A stretch of DNA of 64,000 nucleotides, from positions 868,001-932,000 of the forward strand of contig NZ_CP108036.1 in assembly GCF_036170895.1 (NCBI RefSeq). Direction: 5' to 3'. Under the pieces are notes generated by a model. The model searched no databases, had not been told where the DNA came from, and worked only from the letters and a program-made list of their open reading frames with translations. The translations under genes and the position numbers were made by a program. Source of the stretch: Streptomyces erythrochromogenes (GTDB lineage: Bacteria > Actinomycetota > Actinomycetes > Streptomycetales > Streptomycetaceae). How positions within the stretch are numbered: position 1 is the first letter of the stretch; each line of letters begins with the position of its first letter. Positions 5,930 through 23,978 of the stretch are shown in pieces.

Positions 5930-7201
5930 TCAGGCGGAGCCCAGCCGGGCCAGCGCGGCGGCGGTCAGGGCGCGGACGGCGGCCGGCAGGGCGCTGCGGG
6001 CGTCCGGGGCGAAGTCCGGGGCGTGGTTGGCGGGGAGGGCCGCCATCTTCTCCGCCGCCGTCGAACCCGGGGCTCGGGACCAGGCGGCCGGGCCGGCCGT
6101 GCCCAGCATCCAGTAGCCGAGCCTGATGCCCCGCTCGCCGTGCACGTCGACGCCTGCGTCGCCGAAGAGCGCGAAGTCCTCCGTCGCGAGCGAGGGCGGC
6201 CACATCGCCACCCGCCCCGCCCCGAACTCGGCGGCGTGCGCCTCTCGTAGGGCCGCCGTCAGCGCCGGATCCGGATGGGTGACGGGGGAGGCGGAGAGCC
6301 GGACGATCTCCGGATCCCGGGGGCAGGCCGCGGCGGCGCACTCCGCGCGCACGATCCGCTCCACGGACGCGGCGGCCCGGGCCAGCGAGGCCTCGCTCAC
6401 CGCCCGTACGGTGAGGGCCAGTTCGGCGCGGTCCGGGATCACGTTCGCCCGCTCCCCCGCCCTGAACGAGCCCACGGTCACCGCCACCTGGTCCGCCGGT
6501 GCGGCCTCCCGCGCCACCACCGTCTGGAGCCTGGTCACCACGTGCGCGGCCGCCACCACCGGGTCCACGGCGAGGTGCGGGGCGCCCGCATGACCACCAC
6601 GGCCGTGCACCACCACCCGGAAGGTGACGCTGCCCGCCGTCATGGGCCCGTACCCGTGGGCGACCATCCCGGCCGGCAGCGGCGCCGCGTGCTGGGCCAG
6701 GACGTCGTCGGGCCGCCCGCACCGCCGGTAGAGGCCGTCGGCGAGCATCGCCCCGGCCCCCTCCAGCGTCTCCTCGGCCGGCTGCCCGGCCACGACGAGG
6801 GTGCCCCGCCAGGCCCGCGGCGCCCGCGCGAGCAGCAGGGCCGTGCCCGCCGCCGCGGCCAGGTGCAGATCGTGACCGCAGGCGTGCGCTGCCTCCCCGT
6901 CGGCGGCGTACGGCAGTCCGGTCGTCTCCCGGACCGGCAGGGCGTCGAGTTCGGCCCGCAGCAGGACGGTGGGCCCGTCCCCGTTGCGGAGCACACCGGC
7001 CACGCCGTGCCCGCCGATGCCGCGCGTGGTCGCGTACCCCGCCGACTCCAGCCGTGCGGCGAAGCGGTCCGCCGTACGCCGCTCCGCCCCCGACAGCTCC
7101 GGGTCGCGGTGCAGTTCCAGGTAGAAGGTCGTCAGGTCGCGCAGGTGCGCGCCGAGTCGGGCGAGCGGCGCTGCGGGGGGTTCGGGGGCGTGACCGGTCA
7201 T
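5930..7201 (-). CDS. M20 family amidohydrolase/aminoacylase
   Basis: About 423 residues matching the M20D amidohydrolases (N-acyl-amino-acid or hippurate hydrolase type). The metal motif ACGHDLHLA lies near residue 97, GQPAEETLEGAGAML carries the catalytic and ligand glutamates, and HGRGGHAGAPHLAVDP marks the lid/dimerisation domain. These enzymes hydrolyse N-acyl groups from amino acids in the cytoplasm. It is read divergently from the RiPP precursor, with 163 bp between the start codons. The long upstream extension of the open frame has no coding signature, so the ATG at 7201 is used. Substrate unknown; a role in RiPP maturation is not indicated. Confidence 0.88.
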   Translation of the reverse strand: MTGHAPEPPAAPLARLGAHLRDLTTFYLELHRDPELSGAERRTADRFAARLESAGYATTRGIGGHGVAGVLRNGDGPTVLLRAELDALPVRETTGLPYAADGEAAHACGHDLHLAAAAGTALLLARAPRAWRGTLVVAGQPAEETLEGAGAMLADGLYRRCGRPDDVLAQHAAPLPAGMVAHGYGPMTAGSVTFRVVVHGRGGHAGAPHLAVDPVVAAAHVVTRLQTVVAREAAPADQVAVTVGSFRAGERANVIPDRAELALTVRAVSEASLARAAASVERIVRAECAAAACPRDPEIVRLSASPVTHPDPALTAALREAHAAEFGAGRVAMWPPSLATEDFALFGDAGVDVHGERGIRLGYWMLGTAGPAAWSRAPGSTAAEKMAALPANHAPDFAPDARSALPAAVRALTAAALARLGSA

Positions 7202-7243
7202 GGAGCCATGATCGGGCGGCGGCCGGGAGCGGTCACGGCAGGG

Positions 7244-7275
7244 CGCTGACACGTCGTGACAGAGGGGTGTCAGCG
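7244..7275. promoter_or_regulatory. inverted repeat between amidohydrolase and RiPP precursor
   Basis: CGCTGACAC (7244-7252) and GTGTCAGCG (7267-7275) form perfect 9-bp arms around a 14-nt spacer in the divergent intergenic region. A shorter inverted repeat (GCACCC/GGGTGC, about 7299-7318) lies closer to the precursor. Either may be an operator or part of a leader hairpin. No regulator has been linked to it. Confidence 0.4.
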
Positions 7276-7364
7276 GTACGGGGGGTCCGGTGACGGCGGC
7301 ACCCGCTCTGATGGGTGCAGGCACGGCGCACCCCGGCGCCGTCCCCTCACCAGAAGGAGTCACC

Positions 7365-7538
7365 ATGGAGAAGTCGCCCCTCGCCTCGCTCGCGGACGAG
7401 ATCCTGGAGCTGGAGTCCGAGACCTTCGAGATCTCCGACTACTCGGACGCCAGCGAGGTCGTGCTGGCCGGTTCCACGAGCTGCAGCTCCACCTCGACCT
7501 GTTCCTCGACCACCAGCACCACCTCCTGCTCCGCCTGA
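7365..7538 (+). CDS. RiPP precursor peptide (thiazolyl-peptide/LAP type)
   Basis: A 57-residue peptide starting at an ATG preceded by AGAAGGAG. Residues 1-36 form an acidic leader (LADEILELESETFEISDYSD) ending VVLAG. The tail from residue 37 contains ten Ser, seven Thr and three Cys, plus a final Ala: 20 of 21 residues can be cyclised to azol(in)es or dehydrated. Each Cys sits in an S-C-S context (residues 40, 46, 55). This fits leader-guided modification by the adjacent YcaO, dehydrogenase and LanB proteins. The leader/core boundary after Ala-Gly is inferred. The gene is separated from the operon and convergent with its last gene. Cytoplasmic until export. Confidence 0.9.
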   Translation: MEKSPLASLADEILELESETFEISDYSDASEVVLAGSTSCSSTSTCSSTTSTTSCSA

Positions 7539-7560
7539 CCCGACGGGCCGCGGACACCCG

Positions 7561-7597
7561 GATGCCCCGGTCCCCCACGTGCGGGGACCGGGGCATC
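7561..7597. terminator. bidirectional hairpin terminator between precursor and ycaO
   Basis: A perfect 15-bp stem (GATGCCCCGGTCCCC and its complement, 7561-7575 and 7583-7597) with a 7-nt loop lies between the convergent precursor and YcaO genes. It can terminate transcription from both sides. Confidence 0.8.
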
Positions 7598-7614
7598 CGC
7601 CCGTCCGGGGCCTC

Positions 7615-9552
7615 CTACGGGAAGGGGTGCGGGACCCTGCGGACGTCGGCGTCGGCGAGGTCGGCCGTCCGCAGCCCCGCCCGCCGCGGCGCGGTGCGCA
7701 GCCGCGGCAGGTACGGGGCGCGCTGGCGGGCCCAGCCGAAGTCGATCGGCAGCAGCCCCGGCACCACCGCGCAGACCGTGTGCAGTCCGATGCGCCGCTG
7801 CTCCGGGGTGGTCTGGTCGACGACGATGACGTCGTGTCCGGCGCGCACCAACTCGTCCACGACGCAGAGCAGGTCGTCGCGGAGGTCGCCGGTGCGGGGC
7901 CGTCCGCGGTCCGTCCAGGACCGGTAGACCTCTTCCACCGGGCGCACGGCGACCGGCTCCCGGTAGGGCCGGACGTGCTCCGCCATCGCCGGCAGCCCGT
8001 ACAGCTGGGCGTGGTCCTTCAGGTGCAGCACCTTGCCGAAGTCGGCCGCCATCGCCTCCAGTTCGTCCCGCCGTTCCTCGACCTGGCGGGGCAGGTGCGG
8101 GATGTAGGTGAGCACTTCCGACAGGGCGGCCTCCACCGCCGCCGCCGGGTCGAGCGCGGCGCCGGCGCCGAAGGAGAACAGTCCGGGGCCGCCGTCGCGC
8201 CGCACCGCGAGCCCGGTGACGACCGGGACCGCCAGGTCGACGCGGTTGTCGAAGGCGTGCACGTCGTAGCCCTGGAGTGCCGCCCGGTCGGCCATCGTGC
8301 GCACCGCCGTGCCGGGTACGCTCGCCAGGTCGATCTCGGTCAGCGGCAGGCCGCCGTACCAGGCGAGCAGGAACGCGTCCCGCTCCACGAGTTCGAGCAG
8401 TGCGCCGAGCAGCGCCTCCTCCGGGCAGCTGCCGATGGCGCAGCCGTTGGAGCACTCGAAGACGAAGTTGTCGGCGGCGACGCCGGCGCTGTAGTGCACC
8501 AGCCGGGCCGGGACCAGGACGGGCCGGTCGTCGCGCAGGGAGTGCCCGTACACCCACGGGATGGGCCGCTCGGGGTCGAAGGGGGACACGAGGGGGTCGT
8601 CGCGATAGGTCTCGGGCGCGTAGAACCCGCACTCGGCCGGGTCCAGCGCCCGCTCGCCCAGTTCCGCGTAACTGGCGGTGAGCAGGGTGTTCCCGGTACG
8701 GCGGTGGGTGCCGGCGTAGCGTTCCAGCCCTTCCAGGTGGGCGAGGTCGCGGCTGGCGGCGAAGCTGTTGGCCTGCCCGCTCCACGTGACGTCCGTCAGT
8801 CCCGCGTACCCGCGCATGAAGACGCTCCCCGCGACCGGGGCGGTGGTGGGCGAGGTGACGTTCAGCCAGGTCCCGCCGCCGAGCACCCCCGTCACCGGGT
8901 TCGCCAGCGCCGCGTACGGCATCGGGTACGAGGAGGCGGCGCGCAGCCGCTGCGCGCCGGGGTCGGGTTTGGGCCTGGAGGCGGGTGCGAAGGGCCGCGG
9001 CGCGTCGGTGCCCCGCGGGCCGCAGTCCGGGCACAGCGGGTCGGCCAGCAGCGGGTACGTCCGGATGCGCAGCGTCTCCAGGTCCAGCCGCGACACCTGG
9101 GGCAGGGCCCGGTCGGCGGCCGCCCCCGCGGGCGCGGTGACCCCGCCGCCGTGGACGGCCCCGTGCAGCGCGTACACCGCGTCGTGCGCGTACCGGGACA
9201 GCCGCGGCCATTCGGGGCCGGTGGGCGTGCCCGGCCGGCGGCCGGTCTCCAGCGCGTCGCGCTCGCTGCGGCTGCGCAGCCGCTGGCGGCGCATGGCCAG
9301 GCACTGGCCGCACGCCGGTGCGCTGCCGTCGCCGCCCCACGGGCCGACGAGCACCTCCCGCGCGGTGAGGTGGACCGTGGCCCGCGGCCGGACCGCGGCG
9401 AACGGGTCGGCGGCCCGCGGCCCCAGGGCGTCGTGCACCCCGAGGGTCACCACGACGGCGCCGAGCGGCTCCAGCGCTTCGGCCAGGTGCCGCCGGGCGG
9501 CTTCGAGGGGCGTCCCGTCGGGGGCGAGCGGACGCGGCGGGGTCGTCGTCAT
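7615..9552 (-). CDS. YcaO-domain cyclodehydratase 1
   Basis: A 645-residue protein of the azoline-forming YcaO family, which uses ATP to phosphorylate the backbone amide and convert Cys/Ser/Thr to thiazolines or oxazolines. The N-terminal region has CGQC (near residue 79) and CPDC (near 172), which may bind zinc. The catalytic domain has LEGLERYAG, SNGCAIGSCPEEALLGALLE and LVERDAF, matching the Mg/ATP-binding glutamates. The C-terminus ends PHPFP, the PxPxP-type tail of cyclodehydratases. It starts with an ATGA overlap on the ABC permease and is the last gene of the operon. A second protein of the same architecture is encoded at 17879-19813, so the two probably divide the substrate residues. 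Confidence 0.92.
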   Translation of the reverse strand: MTTTPPRPLAPDGTPLEAARRHLAEALEPLGAVVVTLGVHDALGPRAADPFAAVRPRATVHLTAREVLVGPWGGDGSAPACGQCLAMRRQRLRSRSERDALETGRRPGTPTGPEWPRLSRYAHDAVYALHGAVHGGGVTAPAGAAADRALPQVSRLDLETLRIRTYPLLADPLCPDCGPRGTDAPRPFAPASRPKPDPGAQRLRAASSYPMPYAALANPVTGVLGGGTWLNVTSPTTAPVAGSVFMRGYAGLTDVTWSGQANSFAASRDLAHLEGLERYAGTHRRTGNTLLTASYAELGERALDPAECGFYAPETYRDDPLVSPFDPERPIPWVYGHSLRDDRPVLVPARLVHYSAGVAADNFVFECSNGCAIGSCPEEALLGALLELVERDAFLLAWYGGLPLTEIDLASVPGTAVRTMADRAALQGYDVHAFDNRVDLAVPVVTGLAVRRDGGPGLFSFGAGAALDPAAAVEAALSEVLTYIPHLPRQVEERRDELEAMAADFGKVLHLKDHAQLYGLPAMAEHVRPYREPVAVRPVEEVYRSWTDRGRPRTGDLRDDLLCVVDELVRAGHDVIVVDQTTPEQRRIGLHTVCAVVPGLLPIDFGWARQRAPYLPRLRTAPRRAGLRTADLADADVRRVPHPFP

Positions 9553-10304
9553 GTCCGGTTGCTCCAGCGGAAGGTCTTGAGCCCGATCGCGCCGAAGACG
9601 ACGGCGAAGCCGAGGAGTGCCGCACAGCCGGTGCCGATGGCGGCGAGGGATCCGGTGCCGGTGAGCGCACCCGTCGCGGCGTCGTTGAGGTAGCGCAGCG
9701 GCAGGACGCGGGAGACCGACTGCAGCCACGTCGGCATCATGTCGAGCGGCAGGAACGAGCCGGACAGGAACGCCATCGGCACCATCAGGCAGTTGGCGAT
9801 GGCGGCGACTGCCTCCGGGGTGTTCGCGTAGGTGCCGACGATCACGCCGATGGCGAGGAAGGCGGTGATGCCGAGCACCAGGGCGGGCAGTACGAGCGGC
9901 CAGCGGCCGTCCAGGACAAGGCCGAATCCGGGGAGCATGGCCACCGCGACGAACACCGCCGCCTGCACCACGCCCACGGCCAGCGCCAGTACGTACCGCG
10001 AGGCGAGCACGGTCGTCAGCGGGGTCGGCGTCAGCCGGATCAGCCGCAGCAGGTCGTCGCGCCGCCACTGCATCAGGGTGAAGGCGATGCCGAAGACGGC
10101 CGCGTTGGCGACGCCCCAGGACATCACTCCCGGCGCGATGTAGGAGATGTAGGGGCGGCCGGTCTCCTCGACGTCCTGCCCGCTGAAGATGAGGCCGAAG
10201 ACGACCAGGAAGAGCAGCGGGAAGGCGAAGGTGAAGAAGAGGGTGGCCTTGTCCCGGACCTGCGCCCGGTAGCCGGCGGCGGTCAGGGCCGTGTATGCGC
10301 TCAT
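9549..10304 (-). CDS. ABC-2 type transporter permease
   Basis: A 251-residue integral membrane protein with about six helices, of the ABC-2 family. It carries the typical late motif with FLSGSFLPLDMMP before the last helices. It overlaps the upstream ATPase by ATGA and the downstream ycaO by ATGA, so stoichiometric translation is likely. With the ATPase it should export the modified peptide and could also provide self-protection. No fused protease domain is present, so leader removal must be done elsewhere. Confidence 0.9.
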   Translation of the reverse strand: MSAYTALTAAGYRAQVRDKATLFFTFAFPLLFLVVFGLIFSGQDVEETGRPYISYIAPGVMSWGVANAAVFGIAFTLMQWRRDDLLRLIRLTPTPLTTVLASRYVLALAVGVVQAAVFVAVAMLPGFGLVLDGRWPLVLPALVLGITAFLAIGVIVGTYANTPEAVAAIANCLMVPMAFLSGSFLPLDMMPTWLQSVSRVLPLRYLNDAATGALTGTGSLAAIGTGCAALLGFAVVFGAIGLKTFRWSNRT

Positions 10305-11269
10305 GCCTGGTACTCCGTCTGCGTGTGGGGGCCGGCCTGCGGGCCGGTGTGTGCGGCGCCCGTGAGTTCGAGGTAGACGTCCTCCAGCGTCGCCGTGCGG
10401 GTCATCACGCCGTCCAGTCCGGTGAGGGCGTCGACGGCCTGGAGCACCTTGCCGGGCGTCGCGGTCTCCAGGACGAGGGAACCGCCCTGGAGGACGGCCC
10501 GGTCCACGCCGGGCAGCGCCGCGGCCTCCTCGACGCCGAGCCGGCCGACGGGCAGCAGCAGGCGCGAGGGGGCGCCGGCCGCGGTGACCAGGCGGTGCGG
10601 CGAGTCGAGGGCGGCGATCTTGCCGCCGACGAGTATCGCGACGCGGTCGCACAGCGCCTCGGCCTCGTCGAGGTGGTGGGTGGTGTAGACGATGGTGCGG
10701 CCCTGGCTCTTGAGGGCGCGCAGCACCTCCCACAGGTCGCGGCGGGCCTGCGGGTCCAGGGCGGCCGTCGGCTCGTCGAGGAAGATCAGCTCCGGTTCGT
10801 GGACGAGTGCGGAGGCGATGGCCAGGCGCTGGCGCTGGCCGCCGGAGAGGTTCTCCACCAGGACGTCGCGCTGTTCGGTCAGCCCCACGCTCTCCAGGGT
10901 GCGGTCCGCGGCCGCCGGTTCGCGGCGGTACAGGCCGGCGACGGTGGCGAGGTGCTCGCGCGCGCTCTGCCGTACGAAGAAGGCCGAGGCCTGGGTCTGT
11001 ACGCCCATGCGGGGCAGGAGTGCGGTGTTGCGGGGCCAGGGGCTCTGGCCGAGGACGGTGACCGTGCCGCCGTCGGCCCGGCGCAGCCCCTCCATGATCT
11101 CGATGAGGGTGGTCTTGCCCGCTCCGTTGGGGCCGAGGAGCCCGAAGAACTCGCCGCGGCGCACGTCGAGGGAGACCCCGTCCACCGCCCGGCGGTCGCC
11201 GTAGTGTTTGTGGACGTCCTGGACGGCGATGGCCGGGGAGTCGGGCGGCTGGGTGCTGTCTGTCGTCAT
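10301..11269 (-). CDS. ABC transporter ATP-binding protein
   Basis: A 322-residue ATPase. Walker A is GPNGAGKTT (near residue 45), the signature is LSGGQRQR, Walker B is LIFLDEPTAALDP, and the switch histidine follows in TTHHLDEAEALCD. A ~90-residue C-terminal domain (DUF4162-like) is typical of drug/antibiotic exporters such as DrrA. The ATG at 11269 is used; upstream parts of the open frame are out-of-frame shadows of the M50 gene. It pairs with the permease downstream and probably powers peptide export. Confidence 0.92.
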   Translation of the reverse strand: MTTDSTQPPDSPAIAVQDVHKHYGDRRAVDGVSLDVRRGEFFGLLGPNGAGKTTLIEIMEGLRRADGGTVTVLGQSPWPRNTALLPRMGVQTQASAFFVRQSAREHLATVAGLYRREPAAADRTLESVGLTEQRDVLVENLSGGQRQRLAIASALVHEPELIFLDEPTAALDPQARRDLWEVLRALKSQGRTIVYTTHHLDEAEALCDRVAILVGGKIAALDSPHRLVTAAGAPSRLLLPVGRLGVEEAAALPGVDRAVLQGGSLVLETATPGKVLQAVDALTGLDGVMTRTATLEDVYLELTGAAHTGPQAGPHTQTEYQA

Positions 11270-11322
11270 GGGTCGTGCGTCCCTTGGGTGTCTGGCGTGC
11301 GGTGTGTTCTGGCTGGGTGGGT

Positions 11323-12423
11323 TCAGGTGGTGGCGGCGTACCAGACGGCTCCGGTGAGGCCGGCCGCCAGCAGCAGGACCAGGACGGCGGAGCCGATGCC
11401 GTATCCGGCGTAGAGCCTCCTGGCGTGCGGCGGGTACGCGGCGGCGGCCGTCCGGTCGCGCATCCGTAGCCGGAGATACCCCGAACTGGCGGGTGCCAGC
11501 CGGGTGACGCGCAGGCCGTGGCCGAGCATCGTGTAGCCGTCCAGCGGGGGCAGCGGGACCAGGTTGACGAGCGCCTGGGCGCTGCCGATGAGCAGCAGCG
11601 CGGAGAGCGTGCGCCGGGTGGGGTCGTCGCCTGCGGGCAGCGCCGCCCACCAGAGCCAGAACGGCAGCAGGAACAGCAGGTTGGCGAAGGCGCCCGCGGC
11701 GGCGACCGCCAGCTGGTGCCGGCGCCGTTCCAGGAAGCGGTAGTTGTCGACGGTGCAGTACATGATGGCGACGGGCAGCCGCCAGCGCAGCCCGATCTCT
11801 CCCACGGTCCCGCCGACGTGGCGGGCGGCCACCCCGTGCGCGAACTCGTGCAGGGCCGTGCTCAGCCACATGAGGGTGGCCACGGCCAGCAGCGGCACCG
11901 GATGGCGCAGCAACCACCCGAAGGCCGAAGCCAGTTCGCCGAAGGACGCGGCGAGCACGGTCTCCATGGCGAGGCAGCCCAGCAGCAGGACGCCGAGCAC
12001 CGCCGGGTGCAGGAGCGGGCGCAGCGCGCGGTGCAGCCGGGCCGTCGTGGCGTCGGCGTCCGCGACCAGGCGCAGCGTGCCGCGGAGCAGGCCGCCCCGG
12101 AGCGGCGGGCCGGGCGGGGCGGGTGCGGGCGGCGGCGGGCCGCCGGCGAGCAACCGGCGGCTGCCGAGGAGGGCCAGCAGCTGCTGCCAGTTGCCCTCGC
12201 CGAGCCGCCGGCCGAAGGCGCGCCCGTACTCGGTGCCGATCTCCGCCAGGCTGCGGGTGCCGTCCAGCCGGGAGACGAGGAAGTGCTCCTTGGGCCCGAT
12301 CTCGAACGAGGCTCCGGACACCGGGTCCTTGACCAGGTGGACGGTCGCCGGCCCGTCGAGGAGCGGCGGGGACAGCAGGACGTCCGGCCGCAGGGCGGGC
12401 CGGTGGTCCAGCAGCCCGGTCAT
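11323..12423 (-). CDS. membrane M50-type metalloprotease with N-terminal PqqD-like domain
   Basis: A 366-residue protein. The first ~95 residues (FEIGPKEHFLVSRLDGTRS onward) resemble PqqD/RRE-like winged-helix peptide-recognition domains. A Pro-rich linker follows, then a hydrophobic domain with the zinc motif HEFAHG near residue 193 and a second motif NLVPLPPLDG near residue 292 that supplies the third ligand, as in site-2 proteases (M50). Five or six membrane segments are predicted. It overlaps the upstream SpaB_C gene by ATGA. In this operon it is the only protease-like protein, so leader cleavage or immunity are reasonable hypotheses; neither is shown by sequence. Confidence 0.82.
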   Translation of the reverse strand: MTGLLDHRPALRPDVLLSPPLLDGPATVHLVKDPVSGASFEIGPKEHFLVSRLDGTRSLAEIGTEYGRAFGRRLGEGNWQQLLALLGSRRLLAGGPPPPAPAPPGPPLRGGLLRGTLRLVADADATTARLHRALRPLLHPAVLGVLLLGCLAMETVLAASFGELASAFGWLLRHPVPLLAVATLMWLSTALHEFAHGVAARHVGGTVGEIGLRWRLPVAIMYCTVDNYRFLERRRHQLAVAAAGAFANLLFLLPFWLWWAALPAGDDPTRRTLSALLLIGSAQALVNLVPLPPLDGYTMLGHGLRVTRLAPASSGYLRLRMRDRTAAAAYPPHARRLYAGYGIGSAVLVLLLAAGLTGAVWYAATT

Positions 12424-13505
12424 GTGGCGACCGCCGTACCGTCGGCCGGGGCCTCGCTCTCGCGCAGCACCCGCCCCAGCAGGTGGGCCAGGTACGCCTC
12501 GTCGCGGATGGTGACGTGCAGCCGGTTGTTGGTCATGTGCATGTACGGGGAGAGCAGCAGCGGCAGGGCTTCGGCGGGATCCGTCACCCGTTCGTCGCGG
12601 GTGCCGTCCCAGGAGCGGAAGACGAGGTCGCCGGCGACGGCGAGCGCCTCGGCGCGCTCGCGCAGCTCCTGGCAGTGCTGCGCCCACCCGGCCAGGAAGG
12701 CGGGGAGGCGGCCGGTATCCCCGGAGGCGAGCGCGCCGCGCACGGCGGCGAAGCGGCGGCCGAGGCCGGGCGCGGTCCGGCCGTAGGTGCGGTCGTACTC
12801 CTCGGATCCGATGAACCCGGTGCCGGGAAAGGCCTGGTGCCAGAACGCGTAGTACCGGTCGAGATATCCGGCGAGTTCGTCCCGGTCGGGCAGGAACACG
12901 CCCGCCATGACCATCATCAGCTGGGCGGAGGTGCCCAGCAGGACGGTGCGCAGGTGCAGGTTCATGCGGTGCAGCGCGTCGATGACGAGATCGCTGGAGC
13001 GGGCGAAATGCCATTCGGCGAGTTCGATGCCGGCGGGGCCGCCGTACTTTCCGTATTCGGGCTCGTACGGCTCGCGGGAGCAGGAATTGTTCGGCCGCAG
13101 GTTCATCCGGCCGTCGGGTCCCATGAAGGCGGCCCGGTCGCCCTCCGGGAACTCGATGTCGAACAGCGTGTTGTAGAACTCGTTGAGGAATCCGGAGTCG
13201 ACCTCGTAGAGCGCTGGGCGGGCCTTGAGGAAGGCCGCCACGGCCTCCTCGGCGCGGCGGCGCACCTCGGGTTCCGCCTCCGGTGCGGCCGGACGCAGCC
13301 GCAGCCGGACGTGCGGGCCCTCCAGCCAGTAGTTGATGAAGAAGTGGCCGGCGAGCAGTCCGTCGGCCGTGAGTGCGGCGATCAGCGGCCGGACGCACTG
13401 CACCAGCAGGGGCTGCGGGTTGGCGGCGTAGAAGATGTGCAGGGCCTGCCAGGCACCGCGGGTGTCGGCGCGGGCGCCGGTGGTGGACGGGGTCATCTCG
13501 GACAT
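12420..13505 (-). CDS. thiopeptide-type LanB C-terminal (SpaB_C) elimination protein
   Basis: A 361-residue protein of the Lant_dehydr_C/SpaB_C family. The N-terminal WQALHIFYAANPQPLLVQCV and HFFINYWLEGPHVRLRL, with R/H-rich loops, are typical of the glutamate-elimination half of split LanB systems. These enzymes remove glutamate from glutamylated Ser/Thr to give dehydroalanine/dehydrobutyrine. The same fold also includes thiopeptide [4+2] pyridine synthases, but only one such gene is present and its partner glutamylation gene overlaps it by 13 nt, so the elimination role is favoured. Confidence 0.85.
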   Translation of the reverse strand: MSEMTPSTTGARADTRGAWQALHIFYAANPQPLLVQCVRPLIAALTADGLLAGHFFINYWLEGPHVRLRLRPAAPEAEPEVRRRAEEAVAAFLKARPALYEVDSGFLNEFYNTLFDIEFPEGDRAAFMGPDGRMNLRPNNSCSREPYEPEYGKYGGPAGIELAEWHFARSSDLVIDALHRMNLHLRTVLLGTSAQLMMVMAGVFLPDRDELAGYLDRYYAFWHQAFPGTGFIGSEEYDRTYGRTAPGLGRRFAAVRGALASGDTGRLPAFLAGWAQHCQELRERAEALAVAGDLVFRSWDGTRDERVTDPAEALPLLLSPYMHMTNNRLHVTIRDEAYLAHLLGRVLRESEAPADGTAVAT

Positions 13506-16267: not shown

Positions 16268-16281
16268 CGTTGTCGCTCCCT

Positions 16282-17838
16282 TCAGGCGATCTCGTGGCGG
16301 AAGTCGGCCGGCCGCGGGCGTTCGTGGCCCAGCAGCATGATCAGCAGGGGTGCCTCGTCGGTGCCGGTCAGCCCCAGCTCCTCGATGTACGAGATGTTGT
16401 CGAAGCCGAGGGCCACCCCGGCGCCCAGGCCGAAGGCCGCGGCCGTGGTGTAGAAGGTCTGCGCGACGGCTCCGACGGTGCCGCCCACGAGCCGGTAGCC
16501 GCGGTCGCCGACGCGGTCCAGCACGGCGGTGGTGCGGACGGTCGGGACGAGCACCGCGCCGGCCTGCTCCAGGTTGTAGTTGGAGAGGAAGTAGTTGCGT
16601 TGGAGGAAGGGTCCGGGCGGTCCCGCCGTGACCGGGCGCAGGGTGTGCGCGGCCGGGTCGTAGGCGTACGCGCCGGGGGCGATGCCCTCGACGTGGTTGA
16701 CGAAGGCGTACAGCGAGGTGAGGGAGGGGCCGCCCGGGCGCTCGGCCTCGGTCCCGTACCGGGTGGCCGCGCAGTCCGCCAGCGCGGCGGCGAGCTGCTC
16801 GGCGGCGACCGGACGGGAGGCGTCGAAGCGGCCGAAGCTGCTGCGGCGTTCGCGCAGGGCGCGGGTCGTGGCGGTCGGCGGCGCGGGGGGACGCGGCAGC
16901 GCCAGCGGCTGCGCGCCGCGGGGCGGGTGGGCGGCCGCAGCGTCCAGTGCTCCCGGCTCCGGGCGGTCGGCGGCCCGCCCCCGGGTGGCCCGGTGGACGC
17001 GCCGCAGGGTCTCGAACTCCAGGACGCGGCGGGAGCGTTCGACGTCCCGGTGGCGCGCGGCGGCGCCCGTCGCCCCGCCCTCGCCGGGCGTCCGCCCGCC
17101 CTCCCAGGTCAGCGGGACGACGGCGAAGACGCCCTCCTCCTCGGGGGCCGCACCCAGCAGCCGGGCCAGGCGCTCCTCGTCGAACCACAGCACCGGGTCG
17201 ATCCGCAGCCCGTACTGCGCCGCCCACAGCCTCCAGGTCTGTACGAGCGCGCCCACGTCCATGCTGACGGCGTGGAAGGAGAAGCTGTTGTACTTGAAGG
17301 CGTTCTGCCAGTACTTGACGCCGAGAACGAGGTACTGCGTAGCCTGCCCCGCGGTGCCCGCGCCCGCGCCGAGGGCCTCCCGGACGTCGCCGGTGACGTC
17401 GCCCGCCAGCAGCCGGCGCAACCCGTGCTGGTGCGGCGCGTAGTAGTAGAGGCCGGGTGTCAGCGGCCCGCCGGGGCCGGCCGCCCAGTGGACGGCCACC
17501 GGGTACAGGCCGCCGCCCGAGGCGGTGCCGCGCGACCAGTGCGCGTGCGTGTAGTGCGGCAGCGCCGCCAGGTCGGTGTTGGCCTGGACCGCGAGGCGCC
17601 GGCCGGTCAGCCCGTACGAGTCCCTCAGCATCCCGGACAGCAGCGGCAGGGTGAATCCGGGCACGGGCTGCCGCGGTGGCGTGGGCGGGGGCGTCACCGG
17701 CAGGGGGAGCGTCTCGGCGTCCGGGTGGAACTTGGCCTTGCGGGGCCGGTCGGCCCAGTCGGGGACGAAGTCGGCGGGCTCCATCGGCACCCGGCCGCGG
17801 TGCATGATCTCGTGGGCGTAGACATGGGCGTGGCCCAT
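16282..17838 (-). CDS. SagB-type azoline dehydrogenase (tandem nitroreductase fold)
   Basis: A 518-residue protein starting at an ATG preceded by AGGAGG. Two nitroreductase-like halves are visible. The first runs to about residue 270 with SRGTASGGGLYPVAVHW and KYWQNAFKYNSFSFHAVSMD. The second starts near residue 300 with RRSSFGRFD, SLTSLYAFVNHVEGIAPGAY and a late GLGAGVALGFDN. Proteins of this class use FMN to oxidise thiazolines/oxazolines to aromatic azoles. A Pro/Ala/Arg-rich linker joins the halves. It lies between ycaO2 and lanB in the operon. The FMN site residues were not mapped one by one. Confidence 0.88.
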   Translation of the reverse strand: MGHAHVYAHEIMHRGRVPMEPADFVPDWADRPRKAKFHPDAETLPLPVTPPPTPPRQPVPGFTLPLLSGMLRDSYGLTGRRLAVQANTDLAALPHYTHAHWSRGTASGGGLYPVAVHWAAGPGGPLTPGLYYYAPHQHGLRRLLAGDVTGDVREALGAGAGTAGQATQYLVLGVKYWQNAFKYNSFSFHAVSMDVGALVQTWRLWAAQYGLRIDPVLWFDEERLARLLGAAPEEEGVFAVVPLTWEGGRTPGEGGATGAAARHRDVERSRRVLEFETLRRVHRATRGRAADRPEPGALDAAAAHPPRGAQPLALPRPPAPPTATTRALRERRSSFGRFDASRPVAAEQLAAALADCAATRYGTEAERPGGPSLTSLYAFVNHVEGIAPGAYAYDPAAHTLRPVTAGPPGPFLQRNYFLSNYNLEQAGAVLVPTVRTTAVLDRVGDRGYRLVGGTVGAVAQTFYTTAAAFGLGAGVALGFDNISYIEELGLTGTDEAPLLIMLLGHERPRPADFRHEIA

Positions 17839-17878
17839 GGGTCCTCCTGCGTTCGGATCGGACGCCGGCGGTGGCCGG

Positions 17879-19813
17879 TCAGGGGAAGGGGTGGGGTGCC
17901 GGGTTGAGGTCGCCGGGCTCCAGCGGGCGCTCGCGCAGACCGGCGGCGAACAGGCCGGTCCGCATCCGCGGCATGCCGAGCGCCCGCTGCCGGGACCACC
18001 CGAAGTCGATGGGGAGCAGGCCGGGGACGAGCACGCTCACGGTGTGCAGTCCGAGGGCCCGCTGCTCGGGCATCGTCTGGTCGACGACCACGACGTCGAA
18101 CCCCTCGGCCGCGACCGCCGACACGCACCGGTCCAGATCGGTGCGCACGTCGTCGGAGGCGGGCGCACCCCATCCGTCGGGCCACTCCAGCTCGGCGACG
18201 GTCCGCGGACGCTCGCGGCCGGGGCCGCGCAGCAGGAAGTCCGCGTGCACGCCCATCTCCGGGATCCCGTAGACGAGCGGATGGTCGTGCAGCGCCGTGA
18301 CCAGGTCGAAGTCGGCCGCCATGGCGCGCAGCCGGGCCTCGTCGCGTTCGGTGCGCCCGGGCAGGTTGACGGCGTCCGTGGCGATCTCGCAGAGCGCCGA
18401 GTCCAGGGCGGACTCCGGGTCGAGGCCGGCGCCGGCGCCGAAGCACATCCGGCCGGGGCCGCCGTCGAACCGTTCGGCGACCGCCGTCACGACGGGGACG
18501 GGGAAGGTGATCCGCGTGTCGAAGAAGCGGGCCCGGTAGCCGTACATCGCCAGCCGGTCGACCATCGCCCGGGTCGAGGGCCGGGAACTGCTCGCCGGGT
18601 CGATCTCCGGCAGCGGCTGCCGCCCGTACCAGGCGAGCAGGAAGGCGTCGCGCTCGACGACCTCCATCAGGCCGAAGTAGGCCGCCTCGGCCAGACTTCC
18701 GCCGGAGGCGCAGCCGTTGGAGCTCTCCTGCACGAACCGGTTCTCCAGGCCAGGGGCGTGGTAGTACGTCAGGATCTCCGGGACCAGGCGGGGCGTCCGG
18801 TCGCGCAGCGACCAGCCCCACACCCAGGCGATCTCCCGGTCCGGGTCGAAGGGGCGCACGCGCGGGTTGTCCCGGTGGAAGGCATCGCTGTAGAGGCCGA
18901 CGTCCCGCGGGTCGACCGCGTCGGCGCCGAACCGGTTCAGCGAGCCGGTGACGCTCGTGGTCCGGGCGCGGGCCCGCATCCCGGCGTAGCGCTCCAGGCC
19001 CTCCAGGACCCCCACGTGCGCGCTGCGCGCGAAGGAGTCCGTGTGGCCGCCCCAGAACGTCTCGCGCAGGTATTCGCCCGAGCGCATGGAGAAGCAGCCG
19101 ATGGTCGCGGAGGTGGAGGTGGAGGAGACGTCCTGGACGAGGGAGGGCCCCAGCGCCCCGCACAGCGGGTTCGCGAAGGCCGCCACGTCGATCCCGTACG
19201 ACTCGACGGGGCGGGTGCGGAACACCCCGGGCCGGTGTTTCGGCGCGGGCGCCAGGTCGGGCACGGCCGCGGCGGCGGTGTCCTCCTCCGGGGTGGCGCA
19301 GACCGGGCACTGCGGGTCCGGGACCAACGGGTACCGGCGTACGCGGCCGGTCCGCAGGTCCAGCAGCAGGACGTCGGGGAAGACGCCGCCGGGCGCCGCG
19401 CCGCCGGGGCGGGGCTCCTGGGCGGCCGTGACCAGCGCGGCCAGTGCCCCGGCGGCGAAGGGGTGCGCGTACGGCCAGTCCCCCGCGGCCCGGGTGCCGC
19501 CGCCGAGTTCGAGGGCGTCCCGGAGCGCCACGGACCGAACCGCCTGCCAGCGGCGTTCCAGGCAGCGGGCGCAGCCGCCGGGCCGTCCGACGACCGCCTG
19601 GTGGCCGTACAGGTGTACGGGCACGGTCGCGCCGTCGGCGGGCTCGGGGACGGGCCGGGTGAACGCGTCGCCGAGACCGAGGGGGGTGAGCGTGATCCGG
19701 GGCCCGCCGAGCGCGGCGAGGTCGCGGTCCAGCTGCGCGGTGAAGCGGGCCGCCGCTTCGGGGCCGAGCGCGCAGGCGAGGCCGGGGCCTGCTGTCGACT
19801 GGTCAGTGGTCAT
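17879..19813 (-). CDS. YcaO-domain cyclodehydratase 2
   Basis: A 644-residue protein with the same order of parts as YcaO 1: CARC (near residue 80), CPVC (near 167), LEGLERYAGM, SNGCASGGSLAEAAYFGLME and VVERDAF, and an identical final PHPFP. It starts 11 nt inside the upstream E1-like gene, so the two are coupled. All the catalytic features expected of an azoline-forming YcaO are kept, so it looks active rather than a degenerate copy. Divergence from YcaO 1 outside these motifs suggests different residue preference, such as Cys versus Ser/Thr. A thioamide role is less likely because no TfuA partner is present and the PxPxP-type tail is intact. Confidence 0.92.
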   Translation of the reverse strand: MTTDQSTAGPGLACALGPEAAARFTAQLDRDLAALGGPRITLTPLGLGDAFTRPVPEPADGATVPVHLYGHQAVVGRPGGCARCLERRWQAVRSVALRDALELGGGTRAAGDWPYAHPFAAGALAALVTAAQEPRPGGAAPGGVFPDVLLLDLRTGRVRRYPLVPDPQCPVCATPEEDTAAAAVPDLAPAPKHRPGVFRTRPVESYGIDVAAFANPLCGALGPSLVQDVSSTSTSATIGCFSMRSGEYLRETFWGGHTDSFARSAHVGVLEGLERYAGMRARARTTSVTGSLNRFGADAVDPRDVGLYSDAFHRDNPRVRPFDPDREIAWVWGWSLRDRTPRLVPEILTYYHAPGLENRFVQESSNGCASGGSLAEAAYFGLMEVVERDAFLLAWYGRQPLPEIDPASSSRPSTRAMVDRLAMYGYRARFFDTRITFPVPVVTAVAERFDGGPGRMCFGAGAGLDPESALDSALCEIATDAVNLPGRTERDEARLRAMAADFDLVTALHDHPLVYGIPEMGVHADFLLRGPGRERPRTVAELEWPDGWGAPASDDVRTDLDRCVSAVAAEGFDVVVVDQTMPEQRALGLHTVSVLVPGLLPIDFGWSRQRALGMPRMRTGLFAAGLRERPLEPGDLNPAPHPFP

Positions 19814-22067
19814 CGCCCGGCTCCTGGGCGGTGGTCAGCAGCACTCTGGCGGTGTGGAGGCCGACCGAGGCCAGGTCCGGGGTGCCGGTGGGGACGACGT
19901 AGGCGTCGCGGCCCGCAGCCCGCAGCCGGTCCAGCACCTCGGGCCAGCCGGCGGCGGGCCGATCGGCGTCGGCGGAGCGGGCGTCCGGCGAGGTCGTGAG
20001 CGTGCGGGCGTCGAGGTCGGCCAGCAGGGGGTCACCGGTGTCGGCCGGTCCGCCGGGGGCGGCCTCGTCCTGCTCGAACTGCACGGCACCGAGGAGGTCC
20101 CGCAGTGCGGTCAGCGTCGCCGTCCGCCGGTCGAGGCCGGCGCCCACGGCCCAGCGTTCCCCGGCTCGGGCGAGCAGCACCTGGACGCCGGAGCGTGCGG
20201 CCTCGCCGAGGTCGAGGAGCTCGACGGCGAGGCCGAGCCGGTCCGCGGACCGTACGAGGAAGGCGAGTTCGGCGTCGGCGGTGTCGTCCGTCCGCGGTAC
20301 CGGCGCGGCAACGGTTCCGCGGACCGCCCCCAGCAGGGCGTCGTGGGCCAGGGCGGACAGCAGGCCCGCGGCGGCCGCGTCGGCGGGCGAGGGTCCGGCT
20401 CCGGCTCCGGCGCGGGTGCGCTCGAAGAGCCGGTCGCCGTTGTGCGGGCCGAAGGGGCGGACGGCGCCCGCCGGCACGAGGGCGGGCTCCTTCGTGACGA
20501 GCGAGACGGCCCGCTGCCAGGCGGTGGCCGTGCCGGGCAGCCCGGAGGCGACGGTCAGCGCCCCTTCCGCGACCGCTCCCCCGCCCTCGCTCTCGCCCCG
20601 GGTGGCGATGCCGTACGCGGGGACGACGTGCTCGGCGTAGACCACGGCCGCGGCGTCGAGCGCCCGCATCCGGGCCCCGGCGACGTGGTGGACGTCGAAG
20701 GCCGCGATCGCCCGGGGTGCCGCACGGCCGGTGCCGAACTCGACGACGCTCAGCTTGAGGGGGATCTGGGTCAGCGGCTCGTCGGCGTAGCGCGTGAAGA
20801 CGCCGGTGTACGGGCGGACGAGCGCGGAGCGCCGGTTCAGCTCCTCCACGAGGGCGTCCGCTTCGCGGGCGGTGTCCAGGGTCGGCAGGGCGGGGGCGGC
20901 GGTGGTGCCGGCCTCGGCCAGGTCCACGGGGGCCGCGGCCCGTCCCGCCTCCTCCGCGTCCGGGGCGCAGAACGGGCAGCGCGGGTGGGCGAGGAGCGGC
21001 TCGGCCGTCACGTCCAGGGAGGCCATGTCCTGCACGATCACCTGCCCGGCGGTCTCGGCGGGCAGGGCTCCGGAAGTGGTGCGGAAGACCTCGTAGCCCA
21101 GGAGGTTGCCGATCATCGCGGCCAGCGGCCGTCCCGGCTCCGGGCCGGCCCCGGCGGGCCCGCCGGGCAGTGCCAGGGTGCTCCACAGCTCGGCCGCGGC
21201 GGCGCCGTCGCGGCCGGCGGCCGCGCCGAGCCGGAGCGCGGCGCAGGCCCAGCAGCCGGGGGTGCCGGACGTCATGAGCGGGCCGATCACGGCGTCGGCG
21301 CCGTACGCCCAGGCCGGCAGGAGGGTGCGGCCGGCCGGGATGCCGGCGCGCAGCAGCGGCATCAGGCGGGCGGGGGCGGTGCGGCCGCCGGTGACGACCA
21401 CGAGGTCGTAGTCGGACAGTTCGGACCAGGACGGCTCCCGGTCCGGGTCCGTCGGCAGGGTGCGCAGCTCCGCCGGGCAGCCGTCGGCGACGGCCTCGGC
21501 CACCTCGGCGTCGAGCTCCGGCGTGCCGGACGCGGGGGTGCCGGGCGCGGGGGTGCGGAGGGCCGGTGCCACGCCGACGAGCGCGCAGCCGTTGCGTATC
21601 AGGCTCGAAGCGCACCAGCGGGCGACGTCGTCGTCGCCGAGGACGGCCACGCGGGTGTTCCGGAAGCGCAGGAAGCGGGCTTCTGCGTCATCGGAGTAGT
21701 GGTCGGCGTAGGCGATCTGCGGGGCGTACCGGCGGGCCACGTCGGGGTCGGGCGCCGGCTGTCCGGCGGGGGGTCCGGCGGGGGCGGTGACGGGCCGGGC
21801 GAACTCCCGTTCGTACAGCGTCCGGACGAGTTCGCCGACCATCGCCTGCTGTGCTTCGCCGAGGCCCCGGCACAGGTCGGCGACCGAGTGCTCGCCGGTG
21901 AGGTGGGGGACGATCAGCGTCGCGAAGCGGTAGGCGGACTTGGCCGTGAGGCGGAAGCCGCCGTCCGCGTTGTGGAACAGCACGCCGTCGGGCGTCTCGG
22001 TGAACAGCACGTCCCGGCGGATCCGGGGACGGGTCGCGGCAACGGCTTGGTAGCTGGCGTGGGCCAT
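19803..22067 (-). CDS. TOMM leader-binding E1-like (ocin-ThiF type) partner protein
   Basis: A 754-residue protein, first gene of the operon. Residues ~15-90 form a PqqD-like RRE (VLFTETPDGVLFHNADGGFR). A Rossmann-type E1-like region follows with RVAVLGDDDVARWCASSLI, where the canonical glycine loop is degenerate, and then two cysteine pairs CWAC and CPFC that probably bind structural zinc. These features are those of the C-protein partner that delivers the precursor leader to YcaO. The remaining ~300 residues are an Ala-rich extension with short stretches reminiscent of YcaO/F proteins (VGAGLDRRTATLTALRDLLG). It is read from a 141-bp gap containing GA-rich tandem repeats. Confidence 0.85.
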   Translation of the reverse strand: MAHASYQAVAATRPRIRRDVLFTETPDGVLFHNADGGFRLTAKSAYRFATLIVPHLTGEHSVADLCRGLGEAQQAMVGELVRTLYEREFARPVTAPAGPPAGQPAPDPDVARRYAPQIAYADHYSDDAEARFLRFRNTRVAVLGDDDVARWCASSLIRNGCALVGVAPALRTPAPGTPASGTPELDAEVAEAVADGCPAELRTLPTDPDREPSWSELSDYDLVVVTGGRTAPARLMPLLRAGIPAGRTLLPAWAYGADAVIGPLMTSGTPGCWACAALRLGAAAGRDGAAAAELWSTLALPGGPAGAGPEPGRPLAAMIGNLLGYEVFRTTSGALPAETAGQVIVQDMASLDVTAEPLLAHPRCPFCAPDAEEAGRAAAPVDLAEAGTTAAPALPTLDTAREADALVEELNRRSALVRPYTGVFTRYADEPLTQIPLKLSVVEFGTGRAAPRAIAAFDVHHVAGARMRALDAAAVVYAEHVVPAYGIATRGESEGGGAVAEGALTVASGLPGTATAWQRAVSLVTKEPALVPAGAVRPFGPHNGDRLFERTRAGAGAGPSPADAAAAGLLSALAHDALLGAVRGTVAAPVPRTDDTADAELAFLVRSADRLGLAVELLDLGEAARSGVQVLLARAGERWAVGAGLDRRTATLTALRDLLGAVQFEQDEAAPGGPADTGDPLLADLDARTLTTSPDARSADADRPAAGWPEVLDRLRAAGRDAYVVPTGTPDLASVGLHTARVLLTTAQEPGDDH

Positions 22068-22112
22068 GGGAACACCCCTGGGTGCGGTCTGGGCGGGATC
22101 GGGGGATGAAGC

Positions 22113-22177
22113 CTTGAGCGGGGGGAGCTTGGAGCGGGGGGAGCTTGGAGCGGGGGAGGGAGGCTGGAGCGGGGAGG
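22113..22177. repeat. tandem GA/G-rich repeats in the RiPP operon promoter region
   Basis: Four tandem copies of a unit close to CTTGGAGCGGGGGGAG begin at 22113, 22128, 22144 and 22164. They fill the short gap between the SARP stop and the start of the E1-like gene, so they sit in the operon's promoter/leader. SARP proteins bind direct repeats, but the 15-20 bp period here differs from the usual 11- or 22-bp phasing. They may be binding sites or a slippage-prone minisatellite. Confidence 0.6.
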
Positions 22178-22208
22178 TGTGACGGGGGGCGGCGCGGGCC
22201 GGGAGGGG

Positions 22209-23978
22209 TCAGCGTGGCGCGGCCGTGGCCGCCGCCTCGTGCGTGCGCACACGCCAACGCGCGTAGATGCGGAGCAGATCGTGCAGGCGGTACGGGCCGG
22301 GCGGCCCGTCCTCCAACAGCCCTGCCTCCACGAGCTGTTCGAGTACGGATTCGCTCTCCCCGGCCGCCGGGTCGCCGGCCTCGGCGCGTTCGCCCAGCCG
22401 GAGGAACGCCTCCCGCAGCGCGGGAGTGAGCGCGTCGAGGGCCTGCCCCAGCACCTCGGGTACGGAGAGCCCGGCGTCCTCCGCGAGCGCCAGCCGCGCG
22501 GGGGGATCCTCCGCGAGCCAGGCCGCGCAGTCCGCGACGGACAGTCCGGGCCGGGTCAGCAGCCGTCCCGCGGCGATCCGCAGGGCGAGCGGGAAGTGGC
22601 CGCACACGCGGGCCAGTTCACGGGTCGCCGCGGGCTCGGCCGCGATGCGTTCGGCGCCGACGAGGCCGGCGAGCAGCGCGTACGCCTCGGCGGAGCGCAG
22701 CACGTCCAGGCGGTGCACGGCGCCGCCGTGGGTGGCGACGACCGCGGCCAGTTGCCGCCTGCTGGTCACGAGGACGGCGGCGTCCTCCGCCACGGGCAGC
22801 AGCGGCAGCACCTGCCAGGCGCCGGCCGCGCCGTCCAGGACGATCAGCCGGCGGCCGGGGGCGGGCTCGGGCATGAGCCGCGCCGCTTCCTCGACGGCGA
22901 CCGGGGTTCCGTCGGGCCGGGCCAGCTGGAGGGTGAACACACCGCCGGGGAAGGCCTCCTGCACCTCGTGGGCGGTCTGGCGGGCGAGTGCGGACTTGCC
23001 GATGCCCGGCGCTCCCGAGACGACGACCAGGCGCGGTCCGTCGCCGGCGGTGAGCCGGGCCGCCATGGCCCTGCGGTCGGCGTCGCGTCCGGCGAAGGCG
23101 GGGACGGGCGGCACCGCCCGGGGCGGCCGGGCCGGTACGTACGCGCCGGCGGGCAGCGCGGCGGGCCCGGCCGCGACCGCGACCGCGGCGTGCGCGGATT
23201 CCGGCGGGGCGGGCGCCAGCTCCTCGGCGCGCAGGATGGCGAGCTCCAGGCGGCGCAGTCCCGGTCCCGGGTCGATGCCGAGTTCGTCCCGCAGCCGGTC
23301 GCGGACCGTGCGGTACTCGGCGAGCGCTTCGGCCTGCCGTCCGGTGCGGTAGAGCGCCTCGACGAGCTGCTCGGTGAAGCGTTCGCGCACCGGGTGCCGG
23401 CGGGCGCTCTCGTACAGGTCGACCAGGACCTGATGGCAGTTCCCGGCGGCGAGTTCGAGGTCGCAGACACGTTCCAGCACCCGCAGCCGCTCCTGTTCGA
23501 GGGCGGGCACCGCGTCGTCCTGGAGCATGCGCGAGGCCACGTTGGCGAGGGGCTGCCCCTGCCAGAGGGTGAGCGCCTCGCGCAGCCGGTAGAGCTCCTC
23601 CCCCGGGCCGCCCGCCGAGCCGGCCCGGGCCGCGAGCGCGCGGAACTGGACGAGATCGAGGGTCTCGGTGTCGCAGTGCATCCGGTAACCGCCCGGGACG
23701 GCCTCGATGGTGGTCGCGGATATGCCGTACTTGGCGAACAGCCGGCGCAGCCGGAGGACGCACGTCTGCAGTGCGGCACGGGCCGTGGCGGGCGGTTCTT
23801 CGTCCCATACGGCGCGCAGCAAGTAGGTGGTGGACACCACCGTGTTCGGGTGCAGCAGAAGTGCGGCGAGGAGACTGGTCGGCTTGGACGGTTTGAGAAC
23901 GACGGTTTCCGGGCCGTGCGCAATGCTCAAGGGCCCCAAAAGCTGGAACCGGATGATTGATCCCCCGTGTCGGGACAC
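22209..23978 (-). CDS. SARP family transcriptional activator with NB-ARC domain
   Basis: About 589 residues. An OmpR-type winged helix comes first (FQLLGPLSI onward, through WDEEPPATARAALQTCVLRLRR without its usual receiver), then a BTAD domain to about residue 250. A ~300-residue AAA/NB-ARC-type ATPase follows with Walker A GAPGIGKSA. This is the AfsR-like 'large SARP' layout without TPR repeats. SARPs activate antibiotic operons by binding direct repeats near the -35 region. It lies immediately upstream of the RiPP operon on the same strand, so cluster-specific activation is likely. The start is uncertain: GTG at 23978 is used, with a TTG four codons upstream. Confidence 0.9.
   Translation of the reverse strand: MSRHGGSIIRFQLLGPLSIAHGPETVVLKPSKPTSLLAALLLHPNTVVSTTYLLRAVWDEEPPATARAALQTCVLRLRRLFAKYGISATTIEAVPGGYRMHCDTETLDLVQFRALAARAGSAGGPGEELYRLREALTLWQGQPLANVASRMLQDDAVPALEQERLRVLERVCDLELAAGNCHQVLVDLYESARRHPVRERFTEQLVEALYRTGRQAEALAEYRTVRDRLRDELGIDPGPGLRRLELAILRAEELAPAPPESAHAAVAVAAGPAALPAGAYVPARPPRAVPPVPAFAGRDADRRAMAARLTAGDGPRLVVVSGAPGIGKSALARQTAHEVQEAFPGGVFTLQLARPDGTPVAVEEAARLMPEPAPGRRLIVLDGAAGAWQVLPLLPVAEDAAVLVTSRRQLAAVVATHGGAVHRLDVLRSAEAYALLAGLVGAERIAAEPAATRELARVCGHFPLALRIAAGRLLTRPGLSVADCAAWLAEDPPARLALAEDAGLSVPEVLGQALDALTPALREAFLRLGERAEAGDPAAGESESVLEQLVEAGLLEDGPPGPYRLHDLLRIYARWRVRTHEAAATAAPR

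Follow-up and report, generated by a model that had tools for sequence, protein, structure and literature searches.

A gene cluster between positions 7365 and 23978 of a 64,000-nucleotide stretch of Streptomyces erythrochromogenes DNA (NCBI RefSeq assembly GCF_036170895.1, contig NZ_CP108036.1, positions 868,001 to 932,000 of the forward strand; hereafter the window, in whose coordinates all positions are given) appears to direct the synthesis of a ribosomally synthesized and post-translationally modified peptide (RiPP). Judging from the sequence, we estimate a probability of about 0.7 that the product is a linear, exported peptide with azoles and dehydroamino acids, and that it comes from an operon under the control of a SARP regulator in which two YcaO cyclodehydratases share one F-protein scaffold. 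The cluster consists of nine biosynthetic and export genes, all on the minus strand, with the SARP gene before them and a precursor gene on the plus strand after them. Following the SARP gene, the order on the minus strand is F protein, YcaO1, SagB, LanB-N, SpaB_C (the LanB C-terminal part), M50 protease, ABC exporter (ATPase, permease) and YcaO2; from F to YcaO2 there are eight junctions, five of them overlaps and three gaps of 14-53 bases. A preliminary description had announced a RiPP cluster at this place with two intact azoline-type YcaO proteins, a split LanB and a SARP. This is borne out: the genes lie where it put them and are supported by family scans and by the gene order in 80 of 80 related loci. 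It had also placed a precursor at the far end, which is indeed present, except that it lies on the plus strand and is convergent with YcaO2. The features are:

5930-7201, minus strand: M20 amidohydrolase (TIGR01891 family; Pfam/NCBIfam above cut-off), outside the cluster coordinates
7244-7273, no strand given: operator-like repeat CGCTGACAC...TGACAG...TGTCAG between M20 and precursor, function putative
7365-7538, plus strand: precursor peptide, 57 amino acids, presumed core residues 37-57 (7473-7535) (TIGR03892, NF033400)
7615-9552, minus strand: YcaO2, cyclodehydratase fused to a truncated E1-like part (PF02624, TIGR03604, TIGR03882)
9549-10304, minus strand: ABC-2 type permease (PF01061)
10301-11269, minus strand: ABC transporter ATPase (PF00005)
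11323-12423, minus strand: M50 intramembrane-type metalloprotease, probable leader protease (PF02163)
12420-13505, minus strand: SpaB_C, the LanB C-terminal part, lyase type (PF14028, TIGR03891, tree)
13493-16267, minus strand: LanB N-terminal (glutamylation) part (PF04738; 6ec7 match)
16282-17838, minus strand: SagB-type azoline dehydrogenase (TIGR03605)
17879-19813, minus strand: YcaO1, cyclodehydratase fused to a truncated E1-like part (PF02624, TIGR03604, TIGR03882)
19803-22067, minus strand: F protein, ocin-ThiF-like scaffold, presumed leader binder (TIGR03882; TIGR03693 below cut-off)
22209-23978, minus strand: SARP regulator with NB-ARC part (BTAD, Trans_reg_C, NB-ARC)

All reading frames of the cluster are open in the window. 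The precursor starts with an ATG whose first base is 7365; for the SARP gene a GTG start has its first base at 23978, and a TTG at 23990 is also open. Above the curated cut-off of the respective Pfam or NCBIfam model, which is meant throughout by this wording, were TIGR03605 for SagB as well as PF04738, PF14028, PF00005, PF01061, BTAD, Trans_reg_C and NB-ARC. The M50 protein barely passes PF02163 (27.5 bits, cut-off 27.2) and stays below the daptide protease model NF041824 (94.6 bits, cut-off 300); the PqqD part that had been attributed to it was returned by no family scan, so that of the supposed PqqD-like/M50 protease only the M50 assignment stands. Azoles together with dehydroamino acids are the natural prediction from this gene set, and the chemistry is plausible.

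To see how widely the cluster occurs, named genomes were scanned with YcaO2, which gave 143 relatives, of which the best 80 were kept with a flank of 10 kb. The gene order matches the window in all 80 loci as far as each one reaches (67 reach YcaO1, none reaches F), which excludes chance. The genera include Streptomyces, Kitasatospora, Actinacidiphila, Streptantibioticus, Micromonospora and Sphaerimonospora. At the level of the window's own family, the Streptomycetaceae, a YcaO1 relative at E 1e-100 or better was present in 71 of 297 genomes, and at class level 19 of 394 genomes match YcaO2 at E 1e-85 or better. At least two YcaO matches were obtained in 68 of the 71 family genomes, the other three (G089, G430 and the incomplete G500) having one; the joint retention of both orthologues supports our reading, and the cluster is not an isolated oddity. 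The precursor was found in 76 of the 80 loci in 77 copies, every one of them convergent to YcaO2; L032 has two tandem precursor genes (around 11961 and 12404) with slightly different cores, position 4 being Cys or Thr. Among the loci without a precursor, L052 ends 74 bases past YcaO2. L029, L031 and L049 have both operon and M20, and in L029 the M20 gene begins about 160 bases after YcaO2, as if the precursor had been lost. Across the 80 loci the identity of LanB-N falls to 47% and that of M50 to 43%, while the core of the precursor barely changes.

The two YcaO proteins score 285 and 277 bits with PF02624, and both are above the cut-offs of TIGR03604 and TIGR03882. They share 43.7% identity in the alignment used, end in PHPFP and each carry the consensus residue in 47 of 47 columns conserved to at least 95%, a count that leaves out one row (L187). 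YcaO proteins that form azolines have been described as marked by a PxP C-terminus (PMC7136475). A FastTree phylogeny of 63 sequences separates YcaO1 and YcaO2 into two clades (0.985 and 1.0), each with members of several families; the placement of the single-YcaO relatives is hardly supported (0.087). The sequences thus indicate that YcaO1 and YcaO2 are old paralogues, and since both clades span several families, either the duplication predates these lineages or the cluster moved as a unit. In one relative (G301:C1:9304313-9305959) the YcaO1 frame has one internal TGA and YcaO2 is open, which may be decay or a sequencing error. It is conceivable that one YcaO makes the azolines and the other a different backbone change such as an amidine. 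Bottromycin provides a precedent, as one of its two YcaO proteins makes a macroamidine (PMC8442711), and the second YcaO of the lactazolicins is described as being without the PxP motif (PMC7136475). However, neither protein of the window lacks the PHPFP end, the fused E1-like part or any of the widely conserved residues, and no TfuA model came up for those cluster proteins that were scanned, which makes this alternative unlikely.

YcaO2 aligns with TruD from TruD residue 293 onward only. The leader-binding front is therefore absent, and it is likely, as far as the alignment tells, that the F protein supplies leader binding for the cyclodehydratases. An F-like neighbor, although below its model cut-off, and fused YcaO proteins without this front are the features of F-dependent cyclodehydratases. 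In micrococcin biosynthesis two enzymes successively use the F-type scaffold TclI (PMC10634744), which is a precedent for a single scaffold beside two enzymes. The E1-like partner of the preliminary description can be specified as ocin-ThiF-like: TIGR03882 is above cut-off, and TIGR03693 (ocin-ThiF) matches with E 1.5e-20 but with 73 bits, far below its cut-off of 562. The first 93 residues match PbtF weakly (E 0.045). A weak YcaO-like match in the last third of the F protein (19839-20546) was considered as a novelty and dropped, as other clusters contain weak matches of this kind as well, with at least one located in an F-like open reading frame (ORF; G291:C4).

The precursor reads MEKSPLASLADEILELESETFEISDYSDASEVVLAG-STSCSSTSTCSSTTSTTSCSA, with the hyphen at the presumed border of leader and core. 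It is above the cut-off of both NCBI thiazolylpeptide precursor models (TIGR03892, 49.5 bits, cut-off 25; NF033400, 41 bits, cut-off 30). The presumed core of 21 residues, STSCSSTSTCSSTTSTTSCSA, contains 20 Ser, Thr or Cys and one Ala. We compared 78 precursors (77 copies from 76 loci and that of the window), 77 of which are of equal length; their extraction demanded a run of Ser, Thr and Cys and left these three interchangeable. In all 77 equal-length precursors core positions 3, 5-19 and 21 are invariant. Both serine codon families, TCN and AGY, occur at positions 3, 5, 6, 8, 11, 12, 15 and 18, and the residue is always Ser; the core counts of this codon analysis were made with a pattern that fixed positions 3, 7, 8, 9, 11, 15 and 18 and could therefore reveal no change at these. 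A switch between the two families normally goes via Thr or Cys. As the codons change family and Ser alone occurs, the sequences point to selection on the exact residue.

A later recount was free of any pattern and used 120 listed of 155 protein-database relatives, compared without gaps: 20 of the 120 have the exact core of the window, 65 differ at up to three positions and 90 at up to five. Within these 90, Cys is frequent at core positions 1, 2, 4, 10, 14, 19 and 20 and occurs twice at 17. LanB enzymes dehydrate Ser and Thr, and YcaO enzymes act on Ser, Thr and Cys. The positions that tolerate Cys are for this reason probable azole sites, and the Ser or Thr residues directly preceding them (3, 9, 13, 16 and 18) are candidates for dehydroalanine (Dha) or dehydrobutyrine (Dhb), a prediction with exceptions. 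It agrees with goadsporin, in which the dehydration of a Ser requires an azole immediately after it (PMC5303826).

The two cyclodehydratases might divide their work by residue type, for example Cys versus Thr and Ser, the second copy being kept for a Thr-rich core. Clusters with a single YcaO offer a comparison. L198-L202 come from one genome of the window's family and four of a different family and have one to three tandem precursors that are richer in Cys and poorer in Thr; in L199-L202 the exporter ATPase lies before F. With core borders set by hand, the Thr share is 0.10-0.17 in 12 of 12 of these single-YcaO cores, compared to 0.20-0.33 in all 11 cores from the window and from L204-L206; L204-L206 combine two YcaO proteins with three or four precursors. 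On the other hand, the cores of L207-L209, where two YcaO proteins are present, YcaO2 is relocated between M50 and exporter and the cores are short, have Thr shares of 0.13-0.20 (four cores), and the compared groups are few and related and hence no independent test. In addition, Thr and Cys are exchanged at single core positions (2, 14 and 17), which suggests that one enzyme may accept both. We regard a division by residue type as a tentative idea; the strict form of Cys versus Thr and Ser was abandoned because the comparison of Thr shares fits it only in part, and a second enzyme specialized in Thr is a guess. In G089 (L178, L179, L210) and in L203 no precursor was found.

LanB-N matches the solved dehydratase 6ec7 (E 5e-36), and SpaB_C is above the cut-offs of PF14028 and TIGR03891. 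The question is whether SpaB_C is an elimination lyase or, as in thiopeptides, a pyridine synthase. A thiopeptide-like macrocycle, in which SpaB_C or another enzyme joins two Dha residues, is suggested by the two precursor models and by matches of SpaB_C to the pyridine synthase model NF045556 (98.5 bits, below the cut-off of 325, positions 1-276 only) and to TbtD (E 1.6e-10). A first quick tree had also put SpaB_C near two pyridine synthases; its underlying model included out-of-frame ORFs, 35 rows were dropped, and it has been replaced. For the careful tree we used 15 clusters that each hold a pair of SpaB_C proteins, of which one matches the pyridine synthase model along its full length and its partner along the first part only; eight of the 15 full-length proteins are above the model cut-off and the other seven (124-161 bits, cut-off 325) were assigned by coverage alone. 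In this IQ-TREE tree of 42 rows all 15 full-length proteins are split from the other 27 rows at 100/99, and these 27 comprise the 15 short-match partners, two goadsporin-like proteins and the family of the window's SpaB_C. By score the short-match partner is nearer to this family in seven of eight pairs, the scores coming partly from the model that included out-of-frame ORFs. Furthermore, all eight clusters with an above-cut-off pyridine synthase hold a second, short-match SpaB_C adjacent to it, whereas the window cluster has one SpaB_C; the other one of the genome sits in a separate, goadsporin-like cluster. SpaB_C groups with the lyases and not with the pyridine synthases. We therefore read it as an elimination lyase and do not expect a pyridine ring. 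Thiopeptide identity was rejected on the lyase-side position in the careful tree and because a [4+2] pyridine synthase was not found, and a macrocycle seems quite improbable.

Taken together, a pathway can be proposed for the linear azole and dehydroamino-acid peptide. The SARP would control the operon, and the F protein would bind the acidic leader of the 57-residue precursor and present the core to YcaO1 and YcaO2, both of which we assume to act on this one core. They would convert chosen Cys, Thr and Ser residues to azolines, and SagB would oxidize these to azoles. The split LanB pair would then glutamylate and eliminate Ser and Thr residues that precede azoles, giving Dha/Dhb-azole pairs, before the M50 protease removes the leader by a presumed cut before residue 37, perhaps with the help of the M20 hydrolase, and the ABC pair exports the linear product. 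The order of these steps and the modified sites are predictions. Before modification the core of 21 residues has a mass of 1975.73 Da; as an example, about six azoles (20.03 Da each) and five dehydrations (18.01 Da each) would bring the product to about 1765.5 Da.

Several observations weigh against this proposal. The F assignment rests on weak or below-cut-off matches. Among the 90 closest listed relatives, Cys appears at core position 1 and in single instances at 3, 7 and 16, with a few more cases in the wider set, so that the rule of Dha/Dhb-azole dyads is loose. Single-YcaO relatives have similar cores of Ser, Thr and Cys, and in general, therefore, such a core does not require two YcaO proteins. 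Finally, L029, L031 and L049 keep the operon, with no core run and no leader motif found nearby. These three loci and the internal TGA in the YcaO1 of one relative might even suggest a relic or silent cluster without any product; considering that all frames of the window are open and that order and core are widely conserved, we regard this as very improbable.

With regard to the cluster edges, M20 was found in 77 of the 80 loci, whereas each of eight further ORFs on the same flank, not all of them necessarily genes, was found in 1-2 of the 80, and this conservation argues that M20 belongs to the cluster. It is absent from the two Micromonospora loci and from L052, a locus that stops early, and 15 regions from related subfamilies did not yield it either. 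The gene is divergent from the precursor; the ATG at 7201 is a chosen start, and the open frame extends to 7366. Product trimming or self-protection would be a guess at its role. The repeat at 7244-7273 is conserved in an alignment of 16 chosen upstream regions, and its pattern, derived from that same alignment, matches once in the window and in none of 100 shuffles. Exact matches to a stricter core pattern were present in only 18 of the 80 loci, as well as in L118, a second copy of one of them, which makes the repeat a feature of part of the family. It may be an operator, perhaps for the SARP. A promoter and terminator scan of 7150-7650 and an Rfam scan of 4000-26000 found nothing. At the other edge, all 20 two-YcaO regions examined have a SARP relative as the gene immediately preceding F; in the single-YcaO G089 no such gene was seen ahead of F. 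Beyond the SARP the window has an isochorismatase gene, which was not found in the 21 upstream regions, and therefore the SARP marks this edge of the cluster.

We consider the cluster a widespread orphan variant of a known RiPP type with an unusually fixed core, whose precursor family is already named by NCBI models. A product for this core was not found in the open-access literature, including a search with the core string, which does not prove that none exists; a gene-for-gene match to a cluster with a characterized product was likewise not found there. It is tempting to speculate, as one possibility among others, that a near-fixed polyazole and dehydro peptide is kept across distant genera as a conserved signal, morphogen or metal or target ligand and not as a diversifying bacteriocin, with twin cyclodehydratases of different residue or region choice on one F scaffold and selection on each Ser, Thr and Cys. 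A YcaO1 relative is present in about a quarter of the family genomes sampled, and a conserved RiPP without a product found so far is a good case for asking whether such peptides are signals rather than weapons. Moreover, two old paralogous cyclodehydratases beside one scaffold, together with a core almost entirely of Ser, Thr and Cys, are a clean system for studying how residues are chosen for azoles or dehydroamino acids.

Among the known systems, goadsporin shares the linear azole and Dha logic, a cyclodehydratase, a dehydrogenase, a split LanB and a short precursor with acidic leader (PMC5303826). According to the same source it has one cyclodehydratase (GodD), a peptidase-ABC fusion (GodB), an N-acetyltransferase (GodH) and a mixed core of 19 residues, whereas the window cluster combines its split LanB and SagB with two cyclodehydratases, an F protein, M50, M20 and a core almost entirely of Ser, Thr and Cys; none of the cluster proteins scanned was matched by an N-acetyltransferase Pfam model. 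The distinction from goadsporin and lactazole that the preliminary description drew is thus real in gene content, but the fusion of YcaO and partner given as its reason does not hold, since both YcaO proteins of the window are also fused to an E1-like part (TIGR03882). What does set the cluster apart from goadsporin is the separate F protein, the second cyclodehydratase and the nature of the core. Goadsporin itself influences sporulation as well as secondary metabolism. The same genome contains, outside the window, a second cluster (L122, G000:C1:7384863-7394651) that resembles goadsporin or spongiicolazolicin: beside YcaO, LanB-N and SpaB_C relatives it has two precursor-like ORFs containing GTx/Sx repeats.

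The dehydrazoles also combine azoles with dehydroamino acids, and their dehydration depends on a following azole; they are described with a DUF4135 LanM-like dehydratase and nitrile-hydratase-like leaders (PMC10676384), compared to the split LanB and short leader here. This class was rejected, as no DUF4135 Pfam model was returned among the cluster proteins scanned. The spongiicolazolicins of S. pacificus CWH03 are linear azole/Dha peptides, too, described by two later papers with 28-29 residues and Dha-azole-X tripeptides (PMC8838263, PMC11583998); the presumed core of the window has 21 residues, 20 of them Ser, Thr or Cys, and does not show this tripeptide arrangement. The producer CWH03 carries the window's cluster as well (L065). 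In addition, it has four tripeptide-type precursor ORFs beside a YcaO/LanB/SpaB_C cluster (L121, 18800-19667), which is probably the spongiicolazolicin cluster as far as the published descriptions go. Identity with spongiicolazolicin was rejected, as this second cluster fits better.

Thiopeptides of the thiomuracin/GE2270 type share the precursor models, an F-like protein, fused YcaO, SagB, LanB-N and a lyase SpaB_C; in contrast to them the window cluster is without a pyridine synthase and has a second YcaO, M50 and M20. The coryneazolisins have two YcaO proteins, LanB-like dehydratases, no [4+2] enzyme and contiguous cores of Cys, Ser and Thr (Cox 2015, PMC4603692). They are set apart by their description only, which gives one discrete and one fused YcaO and a core with Ile within (PMC4603692), whereas both YcaO proteins of the window are fused (TIGR03882) and its core is without Ile. 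Cox et al. (2015, PMC4603692) also state that some thiopeptide clusters carry an additional fused cyclodehydratase, and clusters of the present kind may have been counted within their thiopeptide groups.

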